Below, piece by piece: positions 1,976 through 30,002 of a stretch of 38,010 bases of DNA; position 1 is the stretch's first letter, and every line of letters starts with the position of its first letter. The position numbers and the translations under genes are program-made. Location of the stretch: the IMG/VR virus record IMGVR_UViG_3300022602_000230, positions 1-38,010 of that record; one strand, 5' to 3'. The notes below the pieces were generated by a model. That model worked only from the letters and a program-made list of their open reading frames with translations. It made no database searches and had not been told where the DNA came from. The DNA is from a virus.

Positions 1976-1991
1976 ATTATATCTTCGTTCC
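1976..1991 (-). promoter_or_regulatory. GGAAC-type promoter for the 1969-833 small-gene cluster
   Basis: GGAAC (1987-1991), 5 bases, then TATAAT (1976-1981), then 6 bases to ATG 1969. It overlaps the end of the HExxH gene. Confidence 0.7.
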
Positions 1992-2645
1992 TGTTTGTTT
2001 ATCAAATGTACTACTCACTATATCATATACGTACTTGTAAGCTTTCTTTTTATTCTCTGGTGTCAAGTACTTGGTAAGCTTATCCATTTCTTTCTTTGCA
2101 GCTGGGTGCTTTAAATTGTTAAACGCAAATGTTAATGTCTGATTCTTATTAAACTTTCTCTGTTTAGCTAATGTTAATATGTAGTTAGCAAACTCATACG
2201 CCCATGCATTGAGTTCATCTCTATCGTTTTTGTATTGTGCGTAGTCTTTGTACTCACTTTGTTTAGGTACATATCTCTGATTAAGTTTCTTTCTCCGTTC
2301 TTGCTCTCTGTGCACCATTTCATGTCCTATAATTGCTCTTAATTTTTGTTCTTTGTTAGGACTATCCCCTTCAACATAATCCACAACAGTACGTAAATCT
2401 AATATAATGGCTCCTGAGTCAGTGCATATGGCCTGAGGAGTGCCGTGCGGTCTTTTAGGTAACTCCATTACCCCCATACCCACCATTCTAAGACTACTGT
2501 TTATTCTAGCAAGTACCGTTCTAGGATTCATACCCTGTTCTATATCCTCTTTAGCATCATCAAGTACGTGAACTACAAAACTCAAAGCTCTTTCATCAGG
2601 AACTATTGTACCCTCTATTAAAAAGAACTCTTTGTATGTGATCAT
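1977..2645 (-). CDS. HExxH zinc-metallopeptidase-like protein with capsid-targeting-like N-terminus
   Basis: The 222-residue protein carries HEMVH at 108-112, the zinc-binding and catalytic signature of gluzincin-type peptidases. Glu residues in DELNAWAYE (144, 151) could supply the third ligand. The first residues MITYKEFFLIE resemble the T4 capsid-targeting leader, and L-I-E at 9-11 is a possible prohead-protease cut. It overlaps the upstream repeat-protein gene by 4 bases (ATGA), so the two are co-translated. A packaged, injected protease is one reading; a prohead or tail processing enzyme is another. The zinc motif is seen; substrate is unknown. Confidence 0.75.
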   Translation of the reverse strand: MITYKEFFLIEGTIVPDERALSFVVHVLDDAKEDIEQGMNPRTVLARINSSLRMVGMGVMELPKRPHGTPQAICTDSGAIILDLRTVVDYVEGDSPNKEQKLRAIIGHEMVHREQERRKKLNQRYVPKQSEYKDYAQYKNDRDELNAWAYEFANYILTLAKQRKFNKNQTLTFAFNNLKHPAAKKEMDKLTKYLTPENKKKAYKYVYDIVSSTFDKQTGTKI

Positions 2646-4060
2646 CTTCTTTTTAGCTTTCCTTCTATAACATCTTTATTGTTTTCTTTCCATATTTCAA
2701 ACTCTTCATCATTTTTCACTTTATGAATTTTAATAGGTGAGCCGTATTCATTTCTATTCTCTGGTTCATGTAAATGGCACTCTACATCGTTCACTATATA
2801 TTCACTTTTTATTACTTCCCCTGTATCTAAATCAGTTACAATGTGCGCAGGACCATCTAATCTAAAAATGTGATCATCCTGGTAGTAATAAACTTCATGC
2901 TGATTTATATTTTTTCTGTAAAAGTGACTATAACCCCTATTTATTCTATCAATAGCAGGGCCGTTTTTCCTGTCACGTTTACCATTTACTATCCATGCTT
3001 CACCTACTATTTCTCCTTTTTTATTTGTTGATATTACAGCAGGAGCACCTTCTCTGTGCTGTACTCCATTTTTGTACCAGGTATAGTTAGTTATTCTATC
3101 CCCGTCATCTGTATTAAATGAATGAATATAAGCTGGGCCCTTATCATTTTCTATTACATTATTTTTGTACCATATTTGAAGCGTTACTTCATTTCCATGC
3201 CCGTTTACAGAACGCTGTATAAAAGCCGGCCCATCCTCTCTATGAAACTTACCATCTATGCACCATTTTTCAACTATTACTCTCTTTAAGTTTCCTTCTT
3301 GACCAACATACGCTGGTCCATCCTCTCTGTGTAGCTTTCCGTTTTTATAATATGCTATTGCTCCGTTTTTTAATTCCACTCTTCCGTTTAATACATCAGT
3401 ACTAAATTTTGGATTAGGTTCAGTTAGTTTAGGATTTATATCTCTTCCCCAGTGCAAATCAAACCTATCTAGTACATCCTCTTGATACGATACGTGATTA
3501 TCCTCTTCATCAAAAGCTTCAAATGCATCATTATCATCTTCTTCTCTATCTCCTTCCTGGTTTACAACAGGATTTAACTCAGACACGTCTCCGTAAGCTA
3601 TGGCAAACTTCTCGCCAGTTTTCTTATCTATAAAGTACACTAACGTGAACATATCAAAGTATTTCTGGAAAGGATTGTTGTTCTCTCCAGCTGTACACCA
3701 CTTTGTACCTGCTCCGTACTTCTTAGAAGCCTCTACCGTCAATGGTTCTATTACTAGCACCTTATCATTATTAACTATCACTTTTACTTCATTCTGCTTA
3801 ATATTCCTTTCAAACTCCTTACCTGTAGAAGCTTGTATAGTTGCTTGCAATTCTTCTATGTCTTTATAGTTATAGATATCTTTGTTTTTTAAACTAGGCT
3901 GCACTTTATTAAACCTATCAAATATAGGCTTAGCAGTTTGTAAATCGTATAAAGTTTTATACTTTTTATTAAACCTTTGTAATGAAGCATTATTGAGAGT
4001 TACTTCTTTCAATAAGAACTTAGTATAAGGTAATAGCCAATACTCTTTAAATGATATCAC
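2642..4060 (-). CDS. HREDGPA-repeat protein with N-terminal WCT domain, possible internal virion protein
   Basis: The 472-residue protein starts at GTG 4060, 5 bases after a late element. N-terminal residues MISFKEYWLL resemble the other leader-like N-termini here, and LLKE at 16-19 is a candidate cleavage site. Residues 100-160 hold a phage-common motif, GAGTKWCTAG, followed by FIDKKTGEKFAIAYGD. From about residue 230 to 430 there are six degenerate repeats of about 35-45 residues, each with an aromatic Trp/Tyr strand, a G-K turn and HREDGPA or a variant. These are MORN/WG-like beta repeats also common in giant viruses. An acidic linker (EEDDNDAFEAFDEED) separates the two parts. Likely a binding scaffold; exact role unknown. 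Confidence 0.75.
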   Translation of the reverse strand: MISFKEYWLLPYTKFLLKEVTLNNASLQRFNKKYKTLYDLQTAKPIFDRFNKVQPSLKNKDIYNYKDIEELQATIQASTGKEFERNIKQNEVKVIVNNDKVLVIEPLTVEASKKYGAGTKWCTAGENNNPFQKYFDMFTLVYFIDKKTGEKFAIAYGDVSELNPVVNQEGDREEDDNDAFEAFDEEDNHVSYQEDVLDRFDLHWGRDINPKLTEPNPKFSTDVLNGRVELKNGAIAYYKNGKLHREDGPAYVGQEGNLKRVIVEKWCIDGKFHREDGPAFIQRSVNGHGNEVTLQIWYKNNVIENDKGPAYIHSFNTDDGDRITNYTWYKNGVQHREGAPAVISTNKKGEIVGEAWIVNGKRDRKNGPAIDRINRGYSHFYRKNINQHEVYYYQDDHIFRLDGPAHIVTDLDTGEVIKSEYIVNDVECHLHEPENRNEYGSPIKIHKVKNDEEFEIWKENNKDVIEGKLKRR

Positions 4061-4064
4061 TCTA

Positions 4065-5642
4065 TTATTTATTACTCTTGATATAGTTAATAAATGCAGT
4101 ATGATCTTCTAACTCAGCATAAGCTTGCTTCATTCTAGCTCTTAAATCCTTACTATTGATACCGTAAAGAGCTTTTCTAGAGCCAGTATTAATACTCTCA
4201 AATGTTTCCGTAACTGCTTGTCTGTTAAAGAACCTCACTCCAGCTCCTATCTCTAACCATAAGTTAATTGGAAATAAGTTATTAGTGATACAATCTCTAG
4301 ATAGTAAGTGTACTGGATCTTTATTATTGTCTTTAAAGTCTTGAATGATGTCTGGACACTTTGTTCTCTTTTCAAAGTCTTTCCAAAATACTGTATCGGT
4401 TCTTTCTGTCAAGTAATGAAAGTGTAAGAAGTTTAAAGTATCATTATTAATATAGCCCATTGTTTGGTTAAACCTTTTAATACAATCTTCATTTCTTTTT
4501 ACCGCACCTTTTATGTAAGCCAAGAACAAACAAAAAGAGATTACACAAACGTGAATGGAAGTAGCTTCCAACGGTTCAACAAACCCGCTTGACAAGCCTG
4601 CTGCAATACAATTCTTTACCCAAGGCGTTTTATAAGTGCCTGGTTCAAATGAAAATGTTCTAGTTACTTCTATCTCTCTTCCAACTGCTTCTTGTATTTC
4701 TTTTTTTGCATCCTCATCTGATACAAGAGTACTATCATAAACGTACCCACATCCGAATCTTTCCTGCGTTGGAATCTTCCACATCCATCCATACTTCATT
4801 GCAAGAGCCTCAGTATAGGAAGGAATAGACCCTTCACCTAATGGTAAAAAGAAAGGCATTGCTTTATTAACTGGCAAGTACTCTTTATAGCTTTTCCATT
4901 CAGCATTATAATGCTTACCAATTATAAGTCTTTTAAATCCTGTACAATCAAATACAAAATGGCAAGGAACATTTGTACCATCTTCTAAATCAAAAGAGGT
5001 GATGTAATCTTCTTCATCATTGTTTATGTTCTTTATTATACCGTCAATTACTTTTATATTTCTTCTTATACCAACCGTCTTAAGATATTTTGCTAACTTT
5101 ACAGCATTGAAGTGTACTGAATAAGGTCCAAGCTGATGAAAATGAGACATTGGGTCACTTTTTTTATCTGCTCGTGAATCTTTTACAAACTTTACTTTAT
5201 TGCCATTACATACTTGCTGATTAAAATTAATATCACCTAATGCCTTGCCATTTACTATACTCTCTAGAGTACTCATAGACATTAGACTATAACTCGGTCT
5301 AGTGTTAATGACGTAATCTAAAGGATCAATAGAAGCAAAACTACTAAAAAATACATCATCCTTTCCTCTACCATTCCAGTCAACTAACTTTACTCCATTT
5401 TTAATTGTAGCATCTGCATGCTTAATTAAATCACTTACCGGAATACGTATATCATGTAATATATCTATAAATTGAGGTACCGAACCTTCACCAGCACCTA
5501 ATACACCTATATCACTACTTTCAATTAAAGTGACATCAACATCAGGAAAGTGTTGTCTAATTTGAAGTGCAGTAAGCCATCCTGCAGTACCTCCTCCAGC
5601 AACGACAAACTTTGTATCGTTTTTTTCTAAATCAAATGCCAT
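4065..5642 (-). CDS. Flavin-dependent tryptophan halogenase family protein
   Basis: The 525-residue length matches the PrnA/RebH family. The FAD-binding GGGTAG is at 16-21 and the halogenase signature WMWKIP at 286-291. Lys81 (in ATIKNGVKLVDW) aligns with the catalytic Lys79 of PrnA, and Glu359 in EPLEAT with Glu346. The position after that Glu is Ala-Thr-Ser rather than the usual Ser-Thr-Gly that frames chloride. The family uses FADH2, oxygen and halide to make HOX, which halogenates tryptophan or indoles. No flavin reductase is in the window, so the host would supply FADH2. Relatives are known in marine T4-like phages without an assigned role. A weak late-like element (CGTAAATT) lies 5 bases before the ATG. 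Confidence 0.9.
   Translation of the reverse strand: MAFDLEKNDTKFVVAGGGTAGWLTALQIRQHFPDVDVTLIESSDIGVLGAGEGSVPQFIDILHDIRIPVSDLIKHADATIKNGVKLVDWNGRGKDDVFFSSFASIDPLDYVINTRPSYSLMSMSTLESIVNGKALGDINFNQQVCNGNKVKFVKDSRADKKSDPMSHFHQLGPYSVHFNAVKLAKYLKTVGIRRNIKVIDGIIKNINNDEEDYITSFDLEDGTNVPCHFVFDCTGFKRLIIGKHYNAEWKSYKEYLPVNKAMPFFLPLGEGSIPSYTEALAMKYGWMWKIPTQERFGCGYVYDSTLVSDEDAKKEIQEAVGREIEVTRTFSFEPGTYKTPWVKNCIAAGLSSGFVEPLEATSIHVCVISFCLFLAYIKGAVKRNEDCIKRFNQTMGYINNDTLNFLHFHYLTERTDTVFWKDFEKRTKCPDIIQDFKDNNKDPVHLLSRDCITNNLFPINLWLEIGAGVRFFNRQAVTETFESINTGSRKALYGINSKDLRARMKQAYAELEDHTAFINYIKSNK
4066..4073 (-). promoter_or_regulatory. Late promoter AATAAATA for the gene starting at 4060
   Basis: AATAAATA on the minus strand, 5 bases before GTG 4060, overlapping the stop codon of the halogenase gene. 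Confidence 0.65.
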
Positions 5643-5650
5643 GCATTAAT

Positions 5651-5941
5651 TTACGCCATCTTATAGAATAAGTCAACTATTTGACTCTTTGTCTCGCTAG
5701 GTACATCTAACTGAACAAACGAGCTAATAGGTGGCGTTAAGGTAGTGGTAAATGATTCAAATATTGTAAGCAATTGCTGTGCTGTTGCTTGCCTGTCCTC
5801 ACCATTTATATCAGTTGCAATTCTTGATAATAACCTTTTTGTATTTTCTATGCTTATACTATCATACCCGTAGCTGTTAGCCTGGGTATAGCTTAGCATT
5901 AGCATTCTTACATCATCTTGAACTGTAACTGGGTCGGTCAT
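5651..5941 (-). CDS. Hypothetical protein upstream of the halogenase gene
   Basis: A 96-residue protein of mixed composition, with helices in the first two thirds and a Thr/Pro-rich stretch (TTTLTPPISSF) near 70-80. No family recognised. It starts at ATG 5941, 5 bases after the late element AATAAATA, and its stop lies 8 bases before the halogenase start, so the two probably share a transcript. Confidence 0.7.
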   Translation of the reverse strand: MTDPVTVQDDVRMLMLSYTQANSYGYDSISIENTKRLLSRIATDINGEDRQATAQQLLTIFESFTTTLTPPISSFVQLDVPSETKSQIVDLFYKMA

Positions 5942-5945
5942 TTAG

Positions 5946-6032
5946 TTATTTATTTTCCTCTGTATCTTCCTCGTTAATATCTATCACTACTAGACAGAAT
6001 GCAAACAATAGCAGAGCAATTATAAAGTCCAT
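5946..6032 (-). CDS. 28-residue single-pass membrane peptide
   Basis: The reading frame begins MDFIIALLLFAFCLVVIDI and ends with an acidic tail (NEEDTEENK). That gives one membrane helix with a charged cytoplasmic end. A GGAG lies 5 bases before the ATG, inside the end of the preceding membrane-protein gene. The next stop-start spacing is one base, so translation is probably coupled. Such short single-pass peptides in phages may act in lysis or membrane regulation, but nothing here proves it. Confidence 0.6.
   Translation of the reverse strand: MDFIIALLLFAFCLVVIDINEEDTEENK
5947..5954 (-). promoter_or_regulatory. Late promoter AATAAATA for the gene starting at 5941
   Basis: Five bases before ATG 5941. 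It is embedded in the last codons of the 28-residue gene just upstream. Confidence 0.7.
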
Positions 6033-6033
6033 A

Positions 6034-6225
6034 TTACTCCTTTTTGTCTTTGTCTTCGTCTTCTTCTTTTATATTAGTAATAAAGTAGGAGGATGCAATG
6101 ACTTGCCAAAAGCCAGCCACCGACATCCAACTATCTGTTTTAAGAATACCAGCAAGTCCTATAAACACTCCTATAAGCATAATAGAAACTGCTACCCACA
6201 TATCAATTTTATATTTCGTAATCAT
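6034..6225 (-). CDS. Small membrane protein with two hydrophobic helices
   Basis: The 63-residue protein has a helix near 10-27 (VAVSIMLIGVFIGLAGIL) and a second near 33-50, then a highly charged tail (KEEDEDKDKKE). The layout of two helices with a charged cytoplasmic tail is compatible with a class II holin, but this is not demonstrated. It overlaps the upstream 40-residue gene by one base (TAATG) and is followed by another membrane peptide, forming a three-gene membrane cassette. Confidence 0.65.
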   Translation of the reverse strand: MITKYKIDMWVAVSIMLIGVFIGLAGILKTDSWMSVAGFWQVIASSYFITNIKEEDEDKDKKE

Positions 6226-6347
6226 TAGTCAAAAAATCCTTCATCTTTTAATTCTTTTATCATTTTGTCCCAATTTTTACATATAATAACTACACTAATA
6301 ATTATAGATAAAAATGAAACGGCTAACATTGCATAAACTGCGTGCAT
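6225..6347 (-). CDS. 40-residue single-pass membrane protein
   Basis: The frame starts MHAVYAMLAVSFLSIIISVVIIC and continues with a charged tail KNWDKMIKELKDEGFFD. One membrane segment with the N-terminus outside is likely. The gene is supported by the late element TATAAATA 5 bases before its ATG and by a TAATG overlap with the next gene. It leads the three-gene membrane cassette 6347-5946. Function unknown. Confidence 0.65.
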   Translation of the reverse strand: MHAVYAMLAVSFLSIIISVVIICKNWDKMIKELKDEGFFD

Positions 6348-6352: not shown

Positions 6353-6360
6353 TATTTATA
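6353..6360 (-). promoter_or_regulatory. Late promoter TATAAATA for the membrane cassette starting at 6347
   Basis: Minus-strand TATAAATA, 5 bases before ATG 6347, overlapping the stop of the gene ending at 6356. Confidence 0.7.
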
Positions 6361-6844
6361 AATTATCTAAATGAGTCCAGGTTATGAAATCAAGCATATA
6401 CCTTCTTAGTACATAAACGTAACTTTTACCATTATCATCTGTATAAATTCTATAACGTTCTGGGGTACCGCCAATATGTTTTTGCATATCTTTTCTTTTG
6501 TAAAACGCTACACTTCCATAATTTTCTCTATGTATACTTAAATGATAAATGTACTCAGTTTTTTTATCATCATTGAATAACCACCCATCATCATCTATTT
6601 CTATTGCAATAGCGTCAAACTTTGTCATATTAGTTTTTAAATCAAAAGATAATTTCTTATTTTTAATTTTAACTTCTAAATCAAATCCTGCTTTTTGTTT
6701 TTTAATAGATTGATTGTGCTTAACATTATGGCCTTTATTTAAAAAAGCTTTCTCGACTAACAACTCTCCTAGATCTCCTATTCTTCCAGACTCACCGAAA
6801 GCTTCTTCTGAATTTTTACCCCAGTGTTTTATTAATCTTTTCAT
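6356..6844 (-). CDS. PD-(D/E)XK nuclease-fold candidate
   Basis: The 162-residue protein has the order E (in GDLGELLVEKAF, near 27), D (in GFDLEV, near 55) and D-x-K (in SFDLKTN, near 68-70). That is the E...D...(D/E)xK arrangement of restriction-endonuclease-like folds. The C-terminal half is beta-rich with many Tyr. It starts at ATG 6844, 6 bases after a GGAAC-type promoter, so it is expected early or middle. A role in host DNA breakdown or recombination is plausible. The fold is inferred from motif order only. Confidence 0.65.
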   Translation of the reverse strand: MKRLIKHWGKNSEEAFGESGRIGDLGELLVEKAFLNKGHNVKHNQSIKKQKAGFDLEVKIKNKKLSFDLKTNMTKFDAIAIEIDDDGWLFNDDKKTEYIYHLSIHRENYGSVAFYKRKDMQKHIGGTPERYRIYTDDNGKSYVYVLRRYMLDFITWTHLDNL

Positions 6845-7774: not shown

Positions 7775-8228
7775 TTTTTCTTTCTGTTACTACTTCAGCG
7801 TAATGTATCACTCCATCAACATAATTATGAAAATTTGAAATAAGTGTATTTAAAAACGGATATTTTTTAGTTTCTAACAAGTATTTTATATCCGCATTAT
7901 AATCTAAACGATAGTAGAAGCGTAACGTACCGTACTTCTCTTTCACTTGTTCAGCTATTACCTGCGGGCACTCTACGCTATAAATGTAGTTATCTTCATC
8001 TCTATATCTAGTGGGTTTTATACCTAAATGTTCAGCATCTTCTCTATCTATGTTTAAATATGTAGTATAGGTATAAGTTAGAGCTTGACACAATGTATCA
8101 ATAATGTCATACCAATCATCAGGCGTTTCAATACCCCAGCACATACAAGTCTCTTGCATAGATTTATCTTTATCAGCAAATATCTTTGGATACTTGTTAT
8201 ATAGCTGTACTTGTAGTTCTGGGCTCAT
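7743..8228 (-). CDS. Tandem paralogue B of the KEKYGTLRFYY phage family
   Basis: The 161-residue protein is about two thirds identical by eye to the adjacent upstream gene. Shared blocks are the N-terminus MSPEL, MQETCMCWGIETPD, the WY-IIDTLC segment and EQVKEKYGTLRFYYRLDY. The last block is common in unassigned phage proteins (K-E-K-x-G-x-L-R-F-Y). The Cys-x-Cys in CMCWG might bind a metal. Its start lies inside the end of its paralogue, overlapping by 32 bases. Function unknown. Confidence 0.75.
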   Translation of the reverse strand: MSPELQVQLYNKYPKIFADKDKSMQETCMCWGIETPDDWYDIIDTLCQALTYTYTTYLNIDREDAEHLGIKPTRYRDEDNYIYSVECPQVIAEQVKEKYGTLRFYYRLDYNADIKYLLETKKYPFLNTLISNFHNYVDGVIHYAEVVTERKNEQKTNSYYN

Positions 8229-8688
8229 TTTTTAATTCAGTTACAACTTCAGCATAATGCACTACGCCATTAATATAACTATCAAATTTATTTAGTATAA
8301 TTTCTAACTGCGGATACTTTTTAGTTTCTAACAAGTACTTTATATCATCATTATAATCTAAACGATAGTAAAAACGCAATGTACCGTATTTCTCTTTTAC
8401 TTGTTCAGCCACGACTTGAGGACATTCAACCCGGTAAACATAATCATTACCGTCTTTATAATATTTATCCAAAGGTTTCAAACCTAATTTTAAACCATCC
8501 TCTGCATTAATACTCATAACAGTGCTATATGTATAAGTTAGAGCATGGCATAGTGTATCAATTATCTCATACCAATTATCAGGCGTCTCTATGCCCCAGC
8601 ACATGCAAGTCTCTTGCATTGATTTGGTACTATCAGCAAATATCTTTGGATACTTGTCGTATAGTTGCTTTTCTAATTCTGGGCTCAT
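8197..8688 (-). CDS. Tandem paralogue A of the KEKYGTLRFYY phage family
   Basis: A 163-residue protein and first of the duplicated pair, with the same blocks as its neighbour. The two diverge mainly in the middle (after residue 55) and at the C-terminus. It starts at ATG 8688, 6 bases after a GGAAC-type promoter, and so leads the three-gene unit 8688-7142. Retention of both copies intact suggests both are used. Function unknown. Confidence 0.75.
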   Translation of the reverse strand: MSPELEKQLYDKYPKIFADSTKSMQETCMCWGIETPDNWYEIIDTLCHALTYTYSTVMSINAEDGLKLGLKPLDKYYKDGNDYVYRVECPQVVAEQVKEKYGTLRFYYRLDYNDDIKYLLETKKYPQLEIILNKFDSYINGVVHYAEVVTELKNEPRTTSTAI

Positions 8689-9295: not shown

Positions 9296-9475
9296 TTATT
9301 TATTCTTTTCCTCTTCAGCAAAGTTAAGCTGAATGTTAACTACAATGCCTGCATAGTACCAATCTTTAGCAGTCCATTCAGTAGTCTCATCCAAGTTAGC
9401 TAGACGCTGAAAGTGTTCATCTAAAAATGATACCAGCTGTTCTGCTGATTTAATTTTTTTTAAACGTTCTTTCAC
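9296..9475 (-). CDS. 59-residue hypothetical protein (GTG start)
   Basis: The frame begins at GTG 9475 (VKERLKKIKSAEQLVSFLDE) and contains ETTEWTAKDWYYAGIVVNIQL. It is helical and acidic at the end. The start overlaps the stop of the upstream gene as GTGA, the coupled form used elsewhere in this genome. No family recognised. Confidence 0.6.
   Translation of the reverse strand: MKERLKKIKSAEQLVSFLDEHFQRLANLDETTEWTAKDWYYAGIVVNIQLNFAEEEKNK
9297..9304 (-). promoter_or_regulatory. Late promoter AATAAATA deciding the start at 9291
   Basis: Five bases before GTG 9291, overlapping the stop of the upstream 59-residue gene. Confidence 0.65.
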
Positions 9476-9615
9476 TTTTTAAATCTATCGTGTAAAGCCT
9501 TAGCAAATTCTTGCTTATCAGTAAAGCCAGCCTTCTTCATTACGTCAGCCATAATGGGATTGGTTTTAAGTGATTGCTTTTTTAAGATTGGCTTTTTGGT
9601 AGGCTCTTTTTTCAT
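9472..9615 (-). CDS. 47-residue basic protein
   Basis: The frame starts MKKEPTKKPILKKQSLKTNP and ends with a helical segment KAGFTDKQEFAKALHDRFKK. It is strongly basic in its first half, which suits nucleic-acid or polymerase binding, but no family is recognised. A GGAAC-type promoter (GGAAG variant) ends 6 bases before the ATG, and the stop overlaps the next start. It is thus the first gene of a two-gene early/middle unit. Confidence 0.6.
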   Translation of the reverse strand: MKKEPTKKPILKKQSLKTNPIMADVMKKAGFTDKQEFAKALHDRFKK

Positions 9616-9621: not shown

Positions 9622-9637
9622 ATTATATCACACTTCC
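9622..9637 (-). promoter_or_regulatory. GGAAC-type promoter (GGAAG variant) for the gene at 9615
   Basis: GGAAG (9633-9637), 5 bases, TATAAT (9622-9627), 6 bases to ATG 9615. The box and spacer form the last codons of the upstream gene. Confidence 0.65.
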
Positions 9638-9816
9638 TCTTTCTTGCTACCGTACCATTTGATAGCTTGATCAAGAGAGAAGTCTTCTGCAGTATTAAGC
9701 AAACTTCTTACTATTATTGCTTCACTCACACCGTAATGCTTAGCGTAGTTGCTAATTACTTTAGCTTCTGTTTCGTATGCTGTAACGTTAGTTAATAGTT
9801 CAAATGGTCTGTTCAT
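9628..9816 (-). CDS. Small protein, possible ribbon-helix-helix type
   Basis: A 62-residue protein whose central part (AKVISNYAKHYGVSEAIIVRSLLNTAEDF) resembles the two helices of small DNA-binding ribbon-helix-helix proteins; this is weak. It starts 6 bases after a GGAAC-type promoter, fitting an early/middle regulator or inhibitor. No named family. Confidence 0.6.
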   Translation of the reverse strand: MNRPFELLTNVTAYETEAKVISNYAKHYGVSEAIIVRSLLNTAEDFSLDQAIKWYGSKKEEV

Positions 9817-10405: not shown

Positions 10406-10681
10406 TTAGTTTTTGTATATGAAATCGACAAATGCGTAGTACTGGTCAGTATCAAGCGGTATGTCTAACCTTACTGCTAAAGTTTTAATTAACTGTTGTT
10501 CTTTAATTCTATTAGTCGTAGCAAGTTCTCTAATCATTTTAACATCTCTGTCATATTTCTTAGGAACCTTAACCTTCAAACTCTTCTTTAAAGATTTGAG
10601 ATCTTTCTTCATCTCTTTAACATTATCTCTAGCATCATCAATTAATTCAGGAAGTGTTTTAGAAGGTGTTCTAATATTCAT
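10406..10681 (-). CDS. Small coiled-coil-like basic protein
   Basis: A 91-residue protein with a Lys-rich helical stretch (ARDNVKEMKKDLKSLKKSLK) followed by a helical, Ile/Leu-rich C-terminal half. No named family. It starts 6 bases after a GGAAC-type promoter with a TAAAAT box and heads a three-gene unit with the zinc-ribbon gene and the gene ending at 9829. Confidence 0.7.
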   Translation of the reverse strand: MNIRTPSKTLPELIDDARDNVKEMKKDLKSLKKSLKVKVPKKYDRDVKMIRELATTNRIKEQQLIKTLAVRLDIPLDTDQYYAFVDFIYKN

Positions 10682-10687: not shown

Positions 10688-10703
10688 ATTTTAATCATGT
10701 TCC
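10688..10703 (-). promoter_or_regulatory. GGAAC-type promoter (TAAAAT variant) for the gene at 10681
   Basis: GGAAC (10699-10703), 5 bases, TAAAAT (10688-10693), 6 bases to ATG 10681. It sits just downstream of a terminator. Confidence 0.65.
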
Positions 10704-11440: not shown

Positions 11441-11448
11441 TATTTAAG
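11441..11448 (-). promoter_or_regulatory. Late promoter CTTAAATA for the lipoprotein gene
   Basis: Five bases before ATG 11435, overlapping the stop of the upstream gene. Confidence 0.65.
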
Positions 11449-11785
11449 CTGGGTAAACATCTGGTCTCATTCTATGCAATCTTGCGTGTAGTAGTTTTAA
11501 ACTTCTTGCATCCCAAACATCTCTAACCCAGTCAGCATACTTCCAAGTATGCTCTGCAGCTTCATCAAATGAATCAAACTCAAACATTCCGTTTTCTGGT
11601 AAGGGTACACCATCATAACTTAAATCAAACCCTCCGTGTATGGAGGGAACGTACTTACCATTATCATGTTTTAGTATCATCATATAACATTTTCTATATT
11701 GACACTCCCAGGCACCAATTTCTTCACTGCCTAACCATTGATTAGGATACTGTAACGTAGGTGATTTATAAAATGCCTTTTTCAC
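11444..11785 (-). CDS. Hypothetical protein (GTG start)
   Basis: A 113-residue protein rich in Trp, Tyr and His, with a central KYVPSIHGGFDLSYDG and a helical C-terminus. No family recognised. The GTG at 11785 is chosen because a GGAAC-type promoter ends 6 bases before it. It is oriented away from the plus-strand repeat-protein gene at 11834. Confidence 0.7.
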   Translation of the reverse strand: MKKAFYKSPTLQYPNQWLGSEEIGAWECQYRKCYMMILKHDNGKYVPSIHGGFDLSYDGVPLPENGMFEFDSFDEAAEHTWKYADWVRDVWDARSLKLLHARLHRMRPDVYPA

Positions 11786-11791: not shown

Positions 11792-11807
11792 ATTATATAG
11801 ATGTTCC
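11792..11807 (-). promoter_or_regulatory. GGAAC-type promoter for the gene at 11785
   Basis: GGAAC (11803-11807), 5 bases, TATAAT (11792-11797), 6 bases to GTG 11785. Confidence 0.7.
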
Positions 11808-23584: not shown

Positions 23585-24097
23585 TTAAAATTTATAGCTT
23601 AATTTTTGAATATAAGTACCAACATTGTACAGTACTTTATGTATAATGAATTTAATACTCTTCCCTGTTTTAGTATAAAGTATGTATTTGTTATACCATT
23701 TATTGTTATCTGCTTTAACTTTATCCCAGAACTCTTTTTCTTTTGTTTTTCTATAAGCATTATCCTCGCTATTAAAAACTAATAAAGTAGCATTAGTCAT
23801 CTTACCAGCCGTAAATGTAAGTTTATACTCTATCCAGCAATCCCATTTATCCTTTACGTCCTCTCTATAATCATATAAATTTAAAGTACCATGATATTTT
23901 CTATCCTCTAAATATAGTTCTTTGTCATCCTTATATTTTTTCTCGTACAGAATGCCATCTTGTAATACAAACTCTAATAAAAAGTTATCTAAGTCTTTGG
24001 TTTGAAATATGTAGTCACGTTTATCTAAGCCAAGATCTATCATTTCTTGAATAACTGGTAAACTATCACTACATGCAACTGTATCATACATACCCAT
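23585..24097 (-). CDS. Conserved phage protein of the MGMYDT family
   Basis: The 170-residue protein starts MGMYDTVACSDSLP and has IFQTKDLDNFLLEFVLQDG. This pattern is shared by a widespread phage family of unknown function (MGMYDT-V ... FQTK-L). The middle is beta-rich and the C-terminus basic. A GGAAC-type promoter ends 7 bases before the ATG, so it heads an early/middle unit running to 22804. Confidence 0.75.
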   Translation of the reverse strand: MGMYDTVACSDSLPVIQEMIDLGLDKRDYIFQTKDLDNFLLEFVLQDGILYEKKYKDDKELYLEDRKYHGTLNLYDYREDVKDKWDCWIEYKLTFTAGKMTNATLLVFNSEDNAYRKTKEKEFWDKVKADNNKWYNKYILYTKTGKSIKFIIHKVLYNVGTYIQKLSYKF

Positions 24098-24104: not shown

Positions 24105-24120
24105 ATTATACTGTTGTTCC
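24105..24120 (-). promoter_or_regulatory. GGAAC-type promoter for the gene at 24097
   Basis: GGAAC (24116-24120), 5 bases, TATAAT (24105-24110), 7 bases to ATG 24097. Confidence 0.7.
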
Positions 24121-25256: not shown

Positions 25257-25792
25257 GAAAAGATTCTTGTTTCTTGTAATTGTCTAGTGATTGCTATATT
25301 ATAATTAAATGCTACAATGGTTTCATCTAACATATCATCAGAAAGTTTAACTCTGAATTTACCAATGAGATCTCTCATATTCTTAAAGTCGTAGAATGAA
25401 CCAGAACCAGGCACTAATTTTTTAATTTGCTGGCCGCCTGCCATATCGCCCATATATCTAACGTACATATGAGCTATAATTTTCTTAGGATCTTTAATCT
25501 CTTTTATGTAATTACAATATTCTTGAGTAGAAGGAAAAACTATATGTTTAATACTCTCACCTACTAATTCTTCGTAATCATGCTTTATATAGTAATATCT
25601 TGGAAGATCCGGCATATCTTCTAATATACCTAAATTACTAGCAACCTCTTCCATTGCTTGATAAACGAATAACATTTGATAGAGAAACTTTGCATAATCT
25701 TCTACGCTTATTTTGCCGCTAAGCATATATTGCGTAAAAGGCATTGATTCAATTTCATCATGTTTTGGCTTTGTTAATTCTCTTAAGCTCAT
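25253..25792 (-). CDS. Heme oxygenase (biliverdin-forming)
   Basis: The 179-residue protein has LTKPKHDEIES with His11 as the proximal heme ligand, and MYVRYMGDMAGGQQIKK with GDMAGGQ at 115-121, the distal-helix signature (GD-SGGQ in HO1). It is shorter than the roughly 240-residue bacterial HO1 because it lacks a C-terminal tail. The reaction opens heme to biliverdin, CO and iron with reduced ferredoxin, feeding the coupled bilin reductase. A late-type element (ATTAAATA) 5 bases before the ATG suggests late expression, which is notable for a metabolic gene. Confidence 0.9.
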   Translation of the reverse strand: MSLRELTKPKHDEIESMPFTQYMLSGKISVEDYAKFLYQMLFVYQAMEEVASNLGILEDMPDLPRYYYIKHDYEELVGESIKHIVFPSTQEYCNYIKEIKDPKKIIAHMYVRYMGDMAGGQQIKKLVPGSGSFYDFKNMRDLIGKFRVKLSDDMLDETIVAFNYNIAITRQLQETRIFS

Positions 25793-25797
25793 AGTTG

Positions 25798-25805
25798 TAT
25801 TTAAT
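25798..25805 (-). promoter_or_regulatory. Late promoter ATTAAATA for the heme oxygenase - bilin reductase operon
   Basis: Five bases before ATG 25792. Confidence 0.65.
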
Positions 25806-25833
25806 CGTCCCTAACATTCTATCAAGTGTAAAT

Positions 25834-25912
25834 TGGCGCCTCCGGCGTGACTTGAACACGCGACCCACGGTTTAGAAAACCGTTGCTCTATATCCGGCTG
25901 AGCTACGAAGGC
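25834..25912 (-). tRNA. tRNA-Arg (anticodon UCU)
   Basis: A full cloverleaf with encoded CCA. Acceptor GCCTTCG pairs with CGGAGGC; anticodon stem ACGGT/ACCGT encloses loop TTTCTAA with anticodon TCT; the T arm carries GTTCAAG. It reads AGA, a codon favoured by AT-rich phage genomes. A GGAAC-type promoter (GGAAA variant) lies just upstream. Confidence 0.93.
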
Positions 25913-25919
25913 ATATTAT

Positions 25920-25935
25920 ATTATATCACTTTTCC
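25920..25935 (-). promoter_or_regulatory. GGAAC-type promoter (GGAAA variant) for tRNA-Arg
   Basis: GGAAA (25931-25935), 5 bases, TATAAT (25920-25925), 7 bases to the tRNA 5' end at 25912. Confidence 0.6.
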
Positions 25936-25937
25936 AT

Positions 25938-25967
25938 AAAAAAACCCTTTACCGAAGTAAAGGGTTT
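25938..25967 (-). terminator. Rho-independent terminator after the outer-membrane protein gene
   Basis: An 11 bp stem AAACCCTTTAC with GTAAAGGGTTT, loop CGAA, followed on the minus strand by seven T. Confidence 0.85.
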
Positions 25968-25988
25968 GTAAAATTACTTAATGTTTAA

Positions 25989-26720
25989 TTAGAATTTAAA
26001 CTTATAACCAACATTATAACCAGTAACTTGAGCAGCACTGCTTGTTAAAGAGGTACGCTGTGCAAATAGATTTGCTGCAATACCATGCCATTCAAGACCA
26101 ATTCCTGGCTGCCAATATTTCTTTACTGACTTAAGAGCGGCAATTGTTGCTGCACCTGGGTCATTGAAACCTACTCCAACTGCTGGTACAACTTTTAGAG
26201 CACCAAATGTATTGATTGGTGTATTGACACCGAATTCAAAATTGTTGCTACGGTTCATTGTATCGTTAAGAGCACGTCCCTGCCAGTTGACATGTCCACC
26301 AAACCAGCTACCATTTACTTTAACAAATGGTAATAGGTTATGATTTGCAACACCTGCTGCTTCAGATGTATTGACATGTCTCAATTCAGCACCAAGAGTT
26401 AAATCAGCTAAAGGTGATGTGAATTTATAACCAGCATCAAGATAAACACGCTTTAAACCGGTTGAGTCAGTTGTTGAAACTGGCTTACCAGCTACTGCGG
26501 TTGTGGTGGTTAAGCTGCTAATCTTTGTAAATGTATCAAGAGCTAAGTCAACACCGTAAATATTTGTGTCTAACCCAGCAACTGCATAATTTGTTCCGAC
26601 TAGTTGTCCTTGTTGAAGTAACTTAGAAGTAAATTGAACATCTAAGTCTCCACTTACAGGAGCAGCTTTAGCTACAATTGCAATCAATGCTAGTGTAATA
26701 ATAGTTAATAGTTTTTTCAT
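25989..26720 (-). CDS. Phage-encoded outer-membrane beta-barrel protein
   Basis: The 243-residue protein has a signal peptide (about 1-19, ending IVAKA) and then alternating amphipathic strands (LDVQFTSKL, VYLDAGYKFTS, LTLGAELRHVN, NLLPFVKVNGSWFGGHVNW, FEFGVNTPI). It ends NVGYKFKF with the terminal Phe typical of barrels inserted by the BAM complex. Size suits an 8-10 strand barrel. A late-type element lies 9 bases before the ATG and a strong terminator follows, so it is a single-gene late unit. A role in surface remodelling or exclusion of other phages is inference. Confidence 0.75.
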   Translation of the reverse strand: MKKLLTIITLALIAIVAKAAPVSGDLDVQFTSKLLQQGQLVGTNYAVAGLDTNIYGVDLALDTFTKISSLTTTTAVAGKPVSTTDSTGLKRVYLDAGYKFTSPLADLTLGAELRHVNTSEAAGVANHNLLPFVKVNGSWFGGHVNWQGRALNDTMNRSNNFEFGVNTPINTFGALKVVPAVGVGFNDPGAATIAALKSVKKYWQPGIGLEWHGIAANLFAQRTSLTSSAAQVTGYNVGYKFKF

Positions 26721-26729
26721 ACGTCTAAA

Positions 26730-26737
26730 TATTTAAT
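26730..26737 (-). promoter_or_regulatory. Probable late promoter ATTAAATA for the outer-membrane protein
   Basis: Nine bases before ATG 26720, slightly longer than the usual 5-7. Confidence 0.5.
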
Positions 26738-26758
26738 CTTATTTCCTCTTATTTCAAT

Positions 26759-27517
26759 TTATTTTTTATTATACAATTGTAACTTCTTCACTATGAATTT
26801 AACGATATCGCTTCGAACAATATCTTCTTCTGTTAGATAAAATACGTGAATACCTTTATCTTTACTTTCCTGATCGTTAAAGACGTTACACATTTCAGCA
26901 AACCCGGACTTTCCGTTAATATCAGATTGTAAAGGGTCACCGCAAATGAACATTTTACTAAAGTGTCCTAAACGTGTTAACAATGTAGTAAGCTCTTTTC
27001 TTGTACTGTTCTGAGCTTCATCCATTATAATACCTTTTGCATTCCAACTTAACCCTCTCAAATAGCCTGTAGGTTTTGCTTCAATACGTTTTTCTTTTTG
27101 TAAAAGATTAATATCTGAAGCATCTAACATTTCTTCTAATTTCTCTAATAAAGGTTCAAGATAAGGTGATAGCTTTTCATTAGCGTCACCGGGAAGGTAG
27201 CCCATTTTATTGTCACTACTTTCCACAATGCTTCTAATATAGATAAGGTCACTCACCTTTTTCATATTCATTAGTTCTAAAACGGCTAACACAGACAGGA
27301 AACTTTTACTCGTACCTGATGGTCCAGAAACAAAAATAATTTTAGTTTGATTATCTAGAGCTATTTTTAAAAACTCTTTTTGTTTTTCTGTTAAATCGGG
27401 ACGCTGTCTTATTCTTATTTGTCGTCCTAATTTTTCATTTTGATAAACTACTGGACTTGTGTCTTTGGTTTGTTGACTGGCTTCTGAATTGCGTAAAGAA
27501 CGTTTCTTTTTGCTCAT
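26759..27517 (-). CDS. phoH: PhoH-like ATPase
   Basis: The 252-residue protein has Walker A GPSGTSKS at 65-72 and Walker B GIIMDEAQN near 163-171, then FICGDPLQSD, the PhoH family's sensor block. The basic N-terminus is family-typical. PhoH-like genes are widespread in marine phages; the family is NTP-hydrolysing and possibly RNA-related, and its phage role is unsettled. A late element, TATAAATA, lies 7 bases before the ATG. It is divergent from the M14-type gene. Confidence 0.9.
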   Translation of the reverse strand: MSKKKRSLRNSEASQQTKDTSPVVYQNEKLGRQIRIRQRPDLTEKQKEFLKIALDNQTKIIFVSGPSGTSKSFLSVLAVLELMNMKKVSDLIYIRSIVESSDNKMGYLPGDANEKLSPYLEPLLEKLEEMLDASDINLLQKEKRIEAKPTGYLRGLSWNAKGIIMDEAQNSTRKELTTLLTRLGHFSKMFICGDPLQSDINGKSGFAEMCNVFNDQESKDKGIHVFYLTEEDIVRSDIVKFIVKKLQLYNKK

Positions 27518-27524
27518 CTTAAAC

Positions 27525-27532
27525 TATTTATA
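27525..27532 (-). promoter_or_regulatory. Late promoter TATAAATA for phoH
   Basis: Seven bases before ATG 27517, divergent from the element at 27547. Confidence 0.7.
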
Positions 27533-27546
27533 CCTGCTTTACAATT

Positions 27547-27554
27547 ATTAAATA
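27547..27554 (+). promoter_or_regulatory. Late promoter ATTAAATA for the M14-type gene
   Basis: Five bases before GTG 27560. Confidence 0.65.
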
Positions 27555-27559
27555 TTAAT

Positions 27560-28198
27560 GTGTTTAAACAGATATCTAAAAGTCCTTTGTGCTTTCGTTT
27601 AGAGAATACCGGAGCACGTAAGTTATATTTAAGTGCAGGAATTCATGGTGATGAAACCTCTGGGCCTCATACACTTATAAATCTGTTAAAAGAACCAGAA
27701 TTTTTTGATGACTTGGATGTAACTATTTTTCCTATTCTTAATATGTATGGTCATAAACATAACCAGAGACATAATGAAGCAGATAAGGATTTAAATAGAG
27801 ATTTTAAAAGTCAGAGAGAAAAGGAAACTCAAGATCATATTAAACTAATGAATGATAGATATGATATTGCTCTCTGTTTACATGAAGGTAGAGATGCAGA
27901 CGGGGTATACATTTATAAACCTAATAAAAATAAAAGGTTAGATGTGATGGAAAGTATTTTAAAAGCAATGACATTGCAAATGCCTATTGATGATAGACAT
28001 AAAAGAATGCACTCTTTAATTGAACCTGGCATTCTTCAAGATGTAAAGTATAAAGAAATGCATGAAACAGAAGCCATCTATTTAGCCAATAGAGGTGTAG
28101 ATGCTTTTACAATTGAAGTGCCTCATGGTTACACAATGAACGTGAGAGAGAAGACTTTAAGAGCAGGAATAAAACAAGCAGTTAGAATTTTATCCTAA
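27560..28198 (+). CDS. M14-type zinc hydrolase (aspartoacylase / carboxypeptidase-like)
   Basis: The 212-residue protein has LSAGIHGDETSG with the zinc pair His29 and Glu32, DLNRDF with the Asn-Arg substrate-binding pair, ALCLHEGRD with the third zinc ligand His near 113, and FTIEVPHG with the probable catalytic Glu. This is the M14 family, close to the succinylglutamate desuccinylase/aspartoacylase group. It could trim peptidoglycan peptides or deacylate amino acids. The GTG start at 27560 is set by the late element; an ATG two bases before is out of frame. It overlaps the convergent gene by 9 bases. Confidence 0.8.
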   Translation: MFKQISKSPLCFRLENTGARKLYLSAGIHGDETSGPHTLINLLKEPEFFDDLDVTIFPILNMYGHKHNQRHNEADKDLNRDFKSQREKETQDHIKLMNDRYDIALCLHEGRDADGVYIYKPNKNKRLDVMESILKAMTLQMPIDDRHKRMHSLIEPGILQDVKYKEMHETEAIYLANRGVDAFTIEVPHGYTMNVREKTLRAGIKQAVRILS

Positions 28199-28474
28199 CA
28201 TTTTTTTTAAGTCGCCTAAAGCACCTTTACCCATTCCTCCACCGGGTGCACTTTTATAAAATAAATACTCTTCTTGATGTTCAGCAGGAGCATCTATTGA
28301 GGCATAAATGTCATCTGGTTGTATGCCTACCTGTCGTAATTCATCTGCCAGCATCCTTAAAAAATCATTTGATACTGGACCTTTACTAAAGTTATGGTGC
28401 TGTTTTAGGTTTTCTAAATCAGCTATAACCCCTTCTATTGTTTCTTGTTTTCTAAAGTCTTTGAATGACTTCAT
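28190..28474 (-). CDS. Small protein with capsid-targeting-like N-terminus
   Basis: A 94-residue protein starting MKSFKDFRKQE, close to the T4 leader MKTYQEF. The rest is helical and ends in a Gly-rich tail (PGGGMGKGALGDLKKMLG). No L/I-x-E site lies right after the leader, so cleavage is doubtful. The late element ACTAAATA ends 5 bases before the ATG, fitting a virion-related role. Function unknown. Confidence 0.7.
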   Translation of the reverse strand: MKSFKDFRKQETIEGVIADLENLKQHHNFSKGPVSNDFLRMLADELRQVGIQPDDIYASIDAPAEHQEEYLFYKSAPGGGMGKGALGDLKKMLG

Positions 28475-28479
28475 GTAAT

Positions 28480-28487
28480 TATTTAGT
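28480..28487 (-). promoter_or_regulatory. Late promoter ACTAAATA for the gene at 28474
   Basis: Five bases before ATG 28474. Confidence 0.7.
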
Positions 28488-28507
28488 CTTTAAATAGTAA
28501 ACGAAAA

Positions 28508-28901
28508 TGGTGTAGGTGGAGGGAATCGAACCCTCGTCCATTAAACCGTCCTCACCAGCTTCTACAAGTTTAGTATTACAAAATAAGATACGCACCCGTA
28601 ATACTGATACGTAAATTGTTTGGTAGAGATTTCGTCGTACTACTACCATCATACGATCGCCCTCGCTGATGACGTTATATATGTGTAGCGAGAATCTACA
28701 CTATAACGATAGCAGTATTAAGCTGCTAATGGGAGTGCTTCGAATTCTGAACTGAAAGTTTCGGAAACTTTACGGCTCATCTTTGCGAAGTAGCTCTTGA
28801 CTTTGTTAGTCTTTGCGTTTATTGTTTGTTAATTTTAAAAGGTTTAACAACCTTACTTGCTGCTAATGCATCAGATATAATGTCGAATCCAGTGCACCCA
28901 C
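28508..28901 (-). ncRNA. ssrA: tmRNA (one-piece) with a long tag
   Basis: The 394-base RNA starts GTGGGTGCACTGGATTCGAC, the conserved tmRNA 5' end, and closes with a T arm (GAGGG-TTCGATT-CCCTC), CACCTAC and ACCA. GTGGGTG pairs with CACCTAC as the acceptor stem. The resume context AATAAAC-GCA matches the E. coli AATAGTC-GCA. From GCA at 28816 the tag frame runs 32 codons to TAA at 28718, beginning AKTNKVKSYF and ending EALPLAA, a ClpXP-type C-terminus. TTAGCAGCTTAATA around the stop is the conserved helix 5 region. It is probably co-transcribed with tRNA-Glu 23 bases upstream. The role is rescue of stalled ribosomes and tagging of proteins for proteolysis. Confidence 0.92.
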
Positions 28902-28924
28902 AAATTGTAAAAGAACGAAAATTT

Positions 28925-28999
28925 TGGTACCATCACGGGGAATCGAACCCCGATTAACGAAATGAAAATCCGCTGTCCTAACCGTTAGACGATGACGGC
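28925..28999 (-). tRNA. tRNA-Glu (anticodon UUC)
   Basis: A cloverleaf with encoded CCA. Acceptor GCCGTCA pairs with TGATGGT; the anticodon loop is TTTTCAT with anticodon TTC; the T arm is CGGGG-TTCGATT-CCCCG. It reads GAA and GAG. It is first in a two-RNA operon with tmRNA. Confidence 0.93.
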
Positions 29000-29010
29000 A
29001 ACTATACACT

Positions 29011-29026
29011 ATTATATATTAGTTCC
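29011..29026 (-). promoter_or_regulatory. GGAAC-type promoter for the tRNA-Glu / tmRNA operon
   Basis: GGAAC (29022-29026), 5 bases, TATAAT (29011-29016), 11 bases to the tRNA 5' end, leaving a short 5' leader. Confidence 0.7.
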
Positions 29027-29050
29027 TAATAAAAACAACATGAAGAGAAA

Positions 29051-29437
29051 ATGAATAAGATTAAATACTTATCTATGCAGTATTTTATGAAATATTGGAA
29101 AGTACTTGCGGTAGCAGCGGCACTCATTGTAGCATATGGTGTCGGTAAACATTCCGTTCATCCAGCCCCTGCTTTACCTTCAGTTGCTCATATGGCAACT
29201 GCTCACAAACCCACCACGCCAGGTCAAACAACAGTAGTAGCTATTCTTGCTAAATTATCTGCTCAAGATAGAGCAGTAATGGTAAGAGCATTAAGAGCGT
29301 CTCGTACAGCGGTATGGCAACATCCTACACAGAGAATTGCTTTTCATCCTCCCGCTAAACATAAAGTAGCAAAAAAGCATTCTACTGCACATAAAAAACA
29401 TAAAACATCTGGTAAGAAAAAAACCAAAACTAAATAA
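29051..29437 (+). CDS. Membrane-anchored protein with Lys/His-rich tail
   Basis: The 128-residue protein has a membrane helix near 16-31 (YWKVLAVAAALIVAYGVGK), a Pro/Ala-rich stretch, a helical block (AILAKLSAQDRAVMVRALRASR) and a tail of repeated Lys, His and Thr (HKKHKTSGKKKTKTK). A GAAGAG Shine-Dalgarno-like site lies just before the ATG. With the next gene it forms a pair of envelope proteins that share Lys/His-rich ends. An i-spanin role is one option, but the coiled coil expected for that is weak. Function unknown. Confidence 0.7.
   Translation: MNKIKYLSMQYFMKYWKVLAVAAALIVAYGVGKHSVHPAPALPSVAHMATAHKPTTPGQTTVVAILAKLSAQDRAVMVRALRASRTAVWQHPTQRIAFHPPAKHKVAKKHSTAHKKHKTSGKKKTKTK
29429..29436 (+). 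promoter_or_regulatory. Late promoter ACTAAATA for the gene at 29444
   Basis: Seven bases before ATG 29444. It is formed by the last codons and stop of the preceding gene. Confidence 0.6.
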
Positions 29438-29443
29438 TATTGT

Positions 29444-29662
29444 ATGAAAAAAACTATATTATCATTACTGTTGGTTGCCGGGGTACTCTCAGTAGTAAAT
29501 GTTGCAGCGTCTCAATCGGCGCCTCAACCCGCTCCGTCAGCTCCTACAGTAACAGGAAATGCAGCTCAGACAGCACCAGCTGATGCTCATAAGAAACACA
29601 AGAAACATAAAAAGAAGCCGGATACGGATAACCCGCCCGCTGAAGCACCTCCTGCAAAATAA
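29444..29662 (+). CDS. Small secreted Pro/Ala-rich protein with HKKHKKHKKK block
   Basis: The 72-residue protein has a signal peptide (about 1-22, ending NVAAS). The mature part is mostly Ala, Pro and Gln with a cluster of His and Lys (AHKKHKKHKKK) near residue 49-59, then a Pro/Ala-rich end. No lipobox is seen. The His/Lys cluster could bind metal, lipopolysaccharide or nucleic acid. It follows its partner by 6 bases and ends at a bidirectional terminator. Confidence 0.7.
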   Translation: MKKTILSLLLVAGVLSVVNVAASQSAPQPAPSAPTVTGNAAQTAPADAHKKHKKHKKKPDTDNPPAEAPPAK

Positions 29663-29663
29663 T

Positions 29664-29680
29664 ATCTAGTTTAACTAGAT
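29664..29680. repeat. 17-base near-palindrome before the terminator
   Basis: ATCTAGT-TTA-ACTAGAT forms a 7 bp stem with a 3-base loop between the stop at 29662 and the terminator hairpin. Confidence 0.6.
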
Positions 29681-29681
29681 T

Positions 29682-29720
29682 AAAAAAGCCCTACCTCGTA
29701 AGAGATAGGGCTTGTTTTTT
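29682..29720. terminator. Bidirectional rho-independent terminator
   Basis: Stem AAGCCCTA / TAGGGCTT extended by CTC/GAG around a GTAA loop with one mismatch, with an A run on the left and a T run on the right. It lies between convergent genes. Confidence 0.85.
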
Positions 29721-29727
29721 GTCTATT

Positions 29728-29904
29728 TTAATAATGGTTGTGATGAGGAAAAGAAATAGCTTCTTTCAAAGCTCTCTTAAACTTTTTCCAACCATTGCTG
29801 TCGTAACCTCTCTGTACTTGGACCGTTTCGGTCTTGTACTCTGTCAATGCTATCTGTACTAGACCATAAACGGCAAGATACGATGCTGTTATTACTGCGT
29901 TCAT
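29728..29904 (-). CDS. 58-residue hypothetical protein
   Basis: The frame starts MNAVITASYLAVYGLVQIAL, a possible membrane helix, and continues with a charged part containing GWKKFKRALKEAISFP. It is convergent with the Lys/His-rich pair. A second frame of 47 codons (29777-29920) overlaps it and has a GGAGG 13 bases upstream. I prefer the 58-residue frame on protein-like composition, with limited certainty. A GGAAC-type promoter lies about 80 bases upstream. Confidence 0.45.
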   Translation of the reverse strand: MNAVITASYLAVYGLVQIALTEYKTETVQVQRGYDSNGWKKFKRALKEAISFPHHNHY

Positions 29905-29965
29905 ATGTTGTTTTGTTCATAGTTTTGTTTGGGCCTCCACCGGTTAGGCTTCAGCTGTTCAAAAA

Positions 29966-29973
29966 TATTTATA
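29966..29973 (-). promoter_or_regulatory. Late-type TATAAATA in the leader upstream of 29904
   Basis: Minus-strand TATAAATA inside the leader, about 60 bases from the start codon, so here it would give a leadered transcript. It is the exception to the usual spacing. Confidence 0.4.
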
Positions 29974-29986
29974 ATAGTATGCAGTA

Positions 29987-30002
29987 ATTATAATGGTGTT
30001 CC
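29987..30002 (-). promoter_or_regulatory. GGAAC-type promoter with a leader
   Basis: GGAAC (29998-30002), 5 bases, TATAAT (29987-29992). No start codon follows at 6-7 bases; about 65-75 bases of leader follow, with a possible GCCT/AGGC hairpin and GGTGGAGG. Confidence 0.6.

Follow-up and report, generated by a model that had tools for sequence, protein, structure and literature searches.

A short element, GGAAC followed by exactly five bases and TATAAT (GGAAC-N5-TATAAT), recurs at a single spacing upstream of small genes and stable RNA genes across a large group of uncultured marine viruses. Taken as a whole, the data are best explained if this element serves as the early promoter class in a large clade of uncultured marine T4-like phages, a reading that we consider probable. 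The more surprising aspect is that the element goes together, in these T4-like phages, with expression that is predicted to be leaderless and that lacks Shine-Dalgarno signals.

The window analyzed here is the 38,010-base IMG/VR virus record IMGVR_UViG_3300022602_000230 (positions 1 to 38,010). A preliminary description of its sequence listed eleven sites of this kind, and all 11 were present at the coordinates given there, each on the minus strand. Eight of the 11 match GGAAC-N5-TATAAT exactly, and the other three carry the single changes originally described (GGAAG at 9622, GGAAA at 25920, and TAAAAT at 10688). The start codon rule proposed along with them also held. Six bases separate TATAAT from the start codon at seven sites (six ATG and one GTG, at 11785), and seven bases separate it from ATG at 24105; the exceptions are, as claimed, the two stable RNA promoters (25920 and 29011) and 29987, which has no start codon within 40 nt. 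The predicted promoters and the stable RNA genes are as follows.

1976..1991, minus strand: GGAACGAAGATATAAT promoter; N6, ATG at 1969; ORF 1787-1969, 60 aa
6851..6866, minus strand: GGAACGCCAATATAAT promoter; N6, ATG at 6844; ORF 6356-6844, 162 aa
8695..8710, minus strand: GGAACGTACCTATAAT promoter; N6, ATG at 8688; ORF 8197-8688, 163 aa
9622..9637, minus strand: GGAAGTGTGATATAAT promoter, box variant; N6, ATG at 9615; ORF 9472-9615, 47 aa
9823..9838, minus strand: GGAACAGTAATATAAT promoter; N6, ATG at 9816; ORF 9628-9816, 62 aa
10688..10703, minus strand: GGAACATGATTAAAAT promoter, -10 variant; N6, ATG at 10681; ORF 10406-10681, 91 aa; immediately preceded by a terminator-like hairpin (10731-10710)
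11792..11807, minus strand: GGAACATCTATATAAT promoter; N6, GTG at 11785; ORF 11444-11785, 113 aa
24105..24120, minus strand: GGAACAACAGTATAAT promoter; N7, ATG at 24097; ORF 23585-24097, 170 aa
25920..25935, minus strand: GGAAAAGTGATATAAT promoter; follows a terminator-like hairpin (25967-25942) and lies 7 nt upstream of the tRNA-Arg 5' end
25834..25912, minus strand: tRNA-Arg(TCT); 5' end at the predicted transcription start
29011..29026, minus strand: GGAACTAATATATAAT promoter of the tRNA-Glu/tmRNA unit; tRNA-Glu 5' end 11 nt after TATAAT
28508..28999, minus strand: tRNA-Glu (28925-28999) and one-piece tmRNA (28508-28901)
29987..30002, minus strand: GGAACACCATTATAAT promoter, followed by a leader (no start codon in the first 40 nt); terminator-like hairpin at 29713-29686

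The 8 exact matches in the window compare with a mean of 0.04 expected on both strands (order-1 Markov simulation; maximum of 2 in 300 runs). When the gap between GGAAC and TATAAT was set to 0 to 4 or 6 to 13 bases, zero matches were found in the window. Allowing up to two mismatches gave only 41 matches versus 21 expected, indicating that the signal sits in the near-exact sites. A relaxed twelfth match at 33139 falls within a reading frame and is probably due to chance.

Proteins of the window match PhoH, tryptophan halogenase, a glycosyltransferase, and a curli-adenylate cyclase cassette, and relatives are found in Pelagibacter phage HTVC008M and Methylophilales phage Melnitz; the T4-like content of the window is limited to PhoH, tryptophan halogenase, and the curli/cyclase cassette, which are typical of marine T4-like phages. 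The cassette (csgG and other curli genes plus the adenylate cyclase; 30577-35616) is common to the window, HTVC008M, Melnitz, and contig set G022, genomes that are otherwise strongly different. The window tmRNA has a predicted tag of 32 residues, and those of G022 and G007 are predicted to have tags of 21 and 31 residues, respectively. Published Melnitz-type marine phages carry a two-piece tmRNA.

Beyond the window, we scanned IMG/VR with the pattern GGAAC-N5-TATAAT-N6-ATG, using the same pattern with a 6-base gap as the control. Many contigs carried several copies on one strand, whereas the 120 control stretches listed carried one copy each; among the matches listed, two or more GGAAC-N5-TATAAT sites were present in 51 of 119 viral stretches and in 0 of 120 control stretches. 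The enrichment that the preliminary description had proposed testing in related phages was strong, with up to 55 copies per contig at a gap of 5, although several contigs were picked by the motif itself, which inflates their copy numbers. Across ten related contigs the gap of 5 was wholly dominant, and when large contigs were chosen by their terminase instead of the motif, 14 of 15 contained the element. A search with an alignment of five clade terminases identified at least 549 relatives in IMG/VR. Within these genomes, GGAAC sites cluster among small genes of unknown function and tRNAs, away from structural genes; only 2 GGAAC-N5-TATAAT sites were found in 957 kb of terminase-flanking (structural-region) sequence. 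The proposal that the sites form a recurrent promoter class serving early-type genes is thus borne out in its distribution, and as judged from sequence the element is very probably a promoter that is clade-wide in uncultured marine T4-like phages.

Clade contigs encode T4 core proteins with roughly 25-50% identity to those of Syn9, HTVC008M, and Melnitz. Genes for gp17, gp18, gp20, gp23, gp43, UvsX, gp55, and other core proteins are present in G022, and many are also present in G024. The ends of the 197-kb G022 sequence are repeated, so this genome is probably complete. The terminases of deposited phages are under 60% identical to those of the clade, and the exact element was absent from Syn9, HTVC008M, and Melnitz; querying deposited phages with a 30-base consensus gave chance-level matches only. 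In the 90 kb examined of Sinorhizobium phage phiM9, whose terminase identity (39%) is the highest among the deposited relatives listed, the element was not found and Shine-Dalgarno sequences are retained. This phage has an annotated RpoE-like extracytoplasmic function (ECF) sigma factor adjoining phoH (KP881232.1 48207-48761). Among 257 Gb of prokaryote contigs (84,980 genomes), a close variant of the element with a leaderless ATG gave only 112 scattered matches and no arrays, so that the element is no recognizable promoter class in these genomes. ARAGORN also predicted a tRNA-Pyl-like gene in G040 (G040:C1:138150-138226), 12 nt downstream of a GGAAC promoter; it is possible that this gene is a suppressor tRNA associated with stop codon recoding.

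The pooled consensus of the element is wwAAGGAACTnnnATATAATAA, without a -35 signal. TATAAT/TAAAAT is invariant by selection, ATG peaks 6 nt downstream of it, and tRNAs start at least 7 nt downstream, as for a -10 element; TATAAT would thus be the -10 of a sigma70-type RNA polymerase. The box lies far closer to the -10 than a -35 element or a MotA box would, as had been noted for the window, at a single spacing with a gap of 5. A TTGA word at -35 distance occurred at 9 of 254 boxed leaderless promoters, compared to 42 of 136 unboxed leaderless promoters and 105 of 4248 background positions (2.5%). TTGA is therefore rare with the box and frequent without it, indicating that box and -35 are alternatives except in G009, where TTGA and the box occur together at 12 of 12 sites and the -35 is accordingly not always replaced by the box. 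The GGAAC box takes the place of the missing -35 element, lying at about -22 to -18. In one sub-lineage (G002 and G031), CGAAC-N5-TATAAT occurs beside GGAAC-N5-TATAAT, partly on opposite strands, possibly because there are two readers of different specificity or because the first base is relaxed.

The position of the start codon relative to the element is sharply phased. Counting only ATG codons that open a frame of at least 30 codons, we found ATG exactly 6 nt after the -10 at 78 of 192 boxed sites (41%), at 5 nt in 26, and at 1-4 nt in none; in unboxed -10 words, ATG stood at 6 nt in 1.5% of 3,136. A -10 hexamer normally lies 6-7 nt from the transcription start, which would place +1 of the boxed sites on the start codon. 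Transcription from GGAAC promoters would thus begin 6 to 7 nt after TATAAT, and given the fixed N6 to the start codon, the early mRNAs of this class are strongly predicted to be mostly leaderless. At about 40% of boxed sites, no ATG stands 5-7 nt downstream, indicating that leaders occur as well. The 13 tRNA and tmRNA genes with an upstream site begin 7-37 nt after the -10 (8 of them within 7-13 nt and none nearer); these stable RNAs would be transcribed from the mature 5' end itself or from a point a few bases before it.

Shine-Dalgarno words in the clade are at background levels. In the first 11 contigs they preceded 0-4% of genes compared to 0-5% for background, with similar values in other contigs, and in the 957 kb around the clade terminases they preceded 2.7% of 730 ORFs compared to 1.8% for background. 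By contrast, the share is 22-27% in HTVC008M and Melnitz, 9% in Syn9, and 16% in C48C1. Shine-Dalgarno signals would thus appear to have been lost in the same phages that carry the element.

A similar phase was seen at promoters of the T4 late type. Across the 957 kb around clade terminases, ATAAATA was followed by N5-ATG at 277 of 642 sites, compared to 6 of 588 for the control ATAAAT[CG], which predicts that the T4-type late promoters of the clade are also leaderless. The window holds both GGAAC sites and late-type sites, the latter as follows.

30246..30253, minus strand: T4-type late promoter TATAAATA; N5, ATG at 30240; late gene 30019-30240, predicted to be leaderless
5947..5954, minus strand: late-type AATAAATA; N5, ATG at 5941; gene 5651-5941
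4066..4073, minus strand: late-type AATAAATA; N5, GTG at 4060; gene 2642-4060
35622..35629, minus strand: late-type AATAAATA; N5, ATG at 35616; gene 35158-35616
538..545, plus strand: late-type TATAAATA; N5, ATG at 551; gene 551-826
35642..35649, plus strand: late-type TATAAATA; N5, ATG at 35655; gene 35655-35957

In HTVC008M, ATG stands exactly 5 nt after ATAAATA in 9 of 45 sites. Part of the late genes of this phage are thereby predicted to be leaderless, making it a testable, cultured SAR11 phage system.

A third promoter class, TTGA-N16-18-TATAAT, immediately precedes gp55 in G022, G024, and G040, and in G022 also uvsX and gp32. If the clade is compared with T4 and with the scheme reported for Syn9, GGAAC would be the early class, TTGA the middle class, and TATAAATA the late class, with many TTGA promoters and TATAAATA-N5-ATG late promoters also yielding leaderless mRNAs.

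By its sequence and spacing, the element fits none of the promoter classes against which it was tested. The promoters of ECF sigma factors have GGAAC at -35, about 16-17 bases from a different -10. They share the GGAAC(T) word with the element, but the gap of 5 to TATAAT in essentially all cases excludes this reading. At T4 middle promoters, MotA binds the box TGCTTTA near -30. Like the GGAAC class, these promoters have a perfect -10, carry an upstream box in place of the -35, and serve prereplicative genes in many copies; unlike them, the clade has GGAAC at about -22 to -18 with N5, and its mRNAs look leaderless. The pooled logo contained no information upstream of the GGAAC block, where a MotA box near -30 would lie, and sequence and spacing exclude a MotA reading of GGAAC. 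T4 late promoters (TATAAATA) are read with gp55, gp33, and gp45. They occur in the clade and in the window, and gp55 is encoded in G022, G024, and G040; however, the clade places ATG exactly 5 nt after the late box, predicting leaderless mRNAs, and GGAAC sites have TATAAT instead of TATAAATA and are not T4 late promoters.

Cyanophage Syn9, reportedly described by Doron et al. in 2016, is said to have a non-T4 early-gene element and host-like promoters for its middle genes. This overall plan, with an early element of its own and host-like middle promoters, is the same as that proposed for the clade, but Syn9 has no GGAAC-N5-TATAAT and neither leaderless -10-N6-ATG nor ATAAATA-N5-ATG; TTGAC-N18-TATAAT is present. 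As a possible Syn9 counterpart, TGGTG-N5-TATAAT was rejected, since its five copies are apparently coding coincidences with no start codon phase. HTVC008M and Melnitz (Kyanoviridae) share the curli-adenylate cyclase cassette and T4-type core genes with the clade, but they differ in their Shine-Dalgarno share (22-27% of genes), their TTGAC-type promoters, and the lack of the GGAAC element. Genes without leaders have been described in both bacteria and archaea, and leaderless promoters of mycobacteria and other bacteria place the -10 about 6-7 nt before the start codon, without a Shine-Dalgarno sequence (PMC3898074, PMC3160421). There, however, leaderlessness is a cellular trait without a fixed upstream box, whereas here it would concern the early and late classes of a T4-like phage clade. 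The genes motA and asiA have been reported absent from pelagimyophages and cyanomyophages (PMC7029224).

Several explanations for how the box is read were weighed. Chance or coding bias, through codon use or the TAA overlap of packed genes, is hardly credible: some sites do overlap or directly adjoin the upstream gene's stop codon in an AT-rich genome, but the single spacing, the counts far above simulation, the sharp phasing of ATG, which never falls at 1-4 nt, and the occurrence of sites upstream of tRNAs and straight after terminator-like hairpins all argue against it. Host RNA polymerase may read these promoters alone, with GGAAC as a spacer or an extended -10-like contact of host sigma70 and no phage factor, an account to which we give somewhat less than an even chance. 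Early genes need to be read before phage proteins exist, the -10 is a perfect consensus, and the combination of TTGA and box in G009 is as expected of an ordinary sigma70 promoter that has one additional contact. Against this, no such promoter recurs among the 84,980 prokaryote species (the 112 scattered matches to a close variant), and the canonical extended -10 bases are weakly conserved, with T at 41% and G at 31% only (194 sites). These frequencies leave the extended -10-like contact, one of the two modes of reading suggested in the preliminary description, unsupported.

The other suggested mode was an activator. A DNA-binding protein of phage or host, or an injected virion protein, might bind GGAAC beside sigma70 region 3 in the manner of MotA with another box; we hold this tentatively, as a possibility falling short of even. 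Five conserved bases at fixed spacing across a variable gap would be expected of an activator or sigma contact, and in replacing the -35 the box behaves like that of MotA at T4 middle promoters, yet immediate-early genes could not depend on a product that is itself early. A candidate exists in A3, the most widespread early protein family of the clade (81 aa; 15 of 18 contig sets; e.g., L256:2656-2898), a small, conserved family with a C-x(1-2)-C...C-x2-C N terminus (four cysteines in most members) and an invariant GxRS-KNFS-type C terminus. No DNA-binding domain was recognized in the conserved early proteins, A3 had no Pfam or PHROG match, and its structure model (pLDDT 67) was of insufficient quality for a fold search.

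A phage-encoded RpoD-like sigma factor as reader of the GGAAC promoters is improbable. Such genes were found in 4 of 18 contig sets:

G022:C1:30746-31906 (L255:10743-11906): RpoD-like sigma gene
G001 (L278:9940-11085): RpoD-like sigma gene
G032 (L509): RpoD-like sigma gene
G041 (L514): RpoD-like sigma gene

Those of G022 and G001 are full RpoD-like sigmas lying inside the GGAAC cluster, and the G001 gene is itself preceded by GGAAC-N5-TATAAT-N6-ATG. Nevertheless, no such sigma is present in the 221-kb G040, which has 55 sites, or in the 109-kb G024, indicating that it is not the general reader of GGAAC, and its -35-reading helix resembles that of ordinary RpoD, suiting the TTGA class better. 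Possibly, then, these sigmas read TTGA-class promoters. Full RpoD-like sigmas besides gp55 are unusual cargo for T4-like phages. The phage sigma is nearest to proteobacterial RpoD (56-58% identity, compared to 42-47% for Bacteroidota, Cyanobacteria, and Marinimicrobia), a hint that the host may be proteobacterial. A search for T7-like RNA polymerase gave no match in the clade, and the control genomes were silent too. Returning to the early promoter class, we lean slightly toward a phage lineage without Shine-Dalgarno translation, in which early, middle, and late promoters would commonly have the start codon as +1, with an early box that would cooperate with sigma70 and be read by an undescribed factor.

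In the openly accessible literature searched, no GGAAC-TATAAT phage promoter was found, in agreement with the preliminary description, and no phage lineage was found to be described as leaderless throughout. Middle and late promoters were sought but not found in pelagimyophages (PMC7029224), and no middle promoters were identifiable in Melnitz (PMC9004378); the present findings bear on how these very abundant marine phages time their genes. Any marine virus contig can be searched for the three-class promoter code to predict temporal class and correct start codons, and the phase between -10 and ATG can itself be used to settle where genes start in these genomes. If confirmed, the clade would represent a T4-like system whose expression relies on leaderless mRNAs, with consequences for the biology of host ribosomes and for our view of how non-Shine-Dalgarno translation is accommodated, or imposed, by phages.
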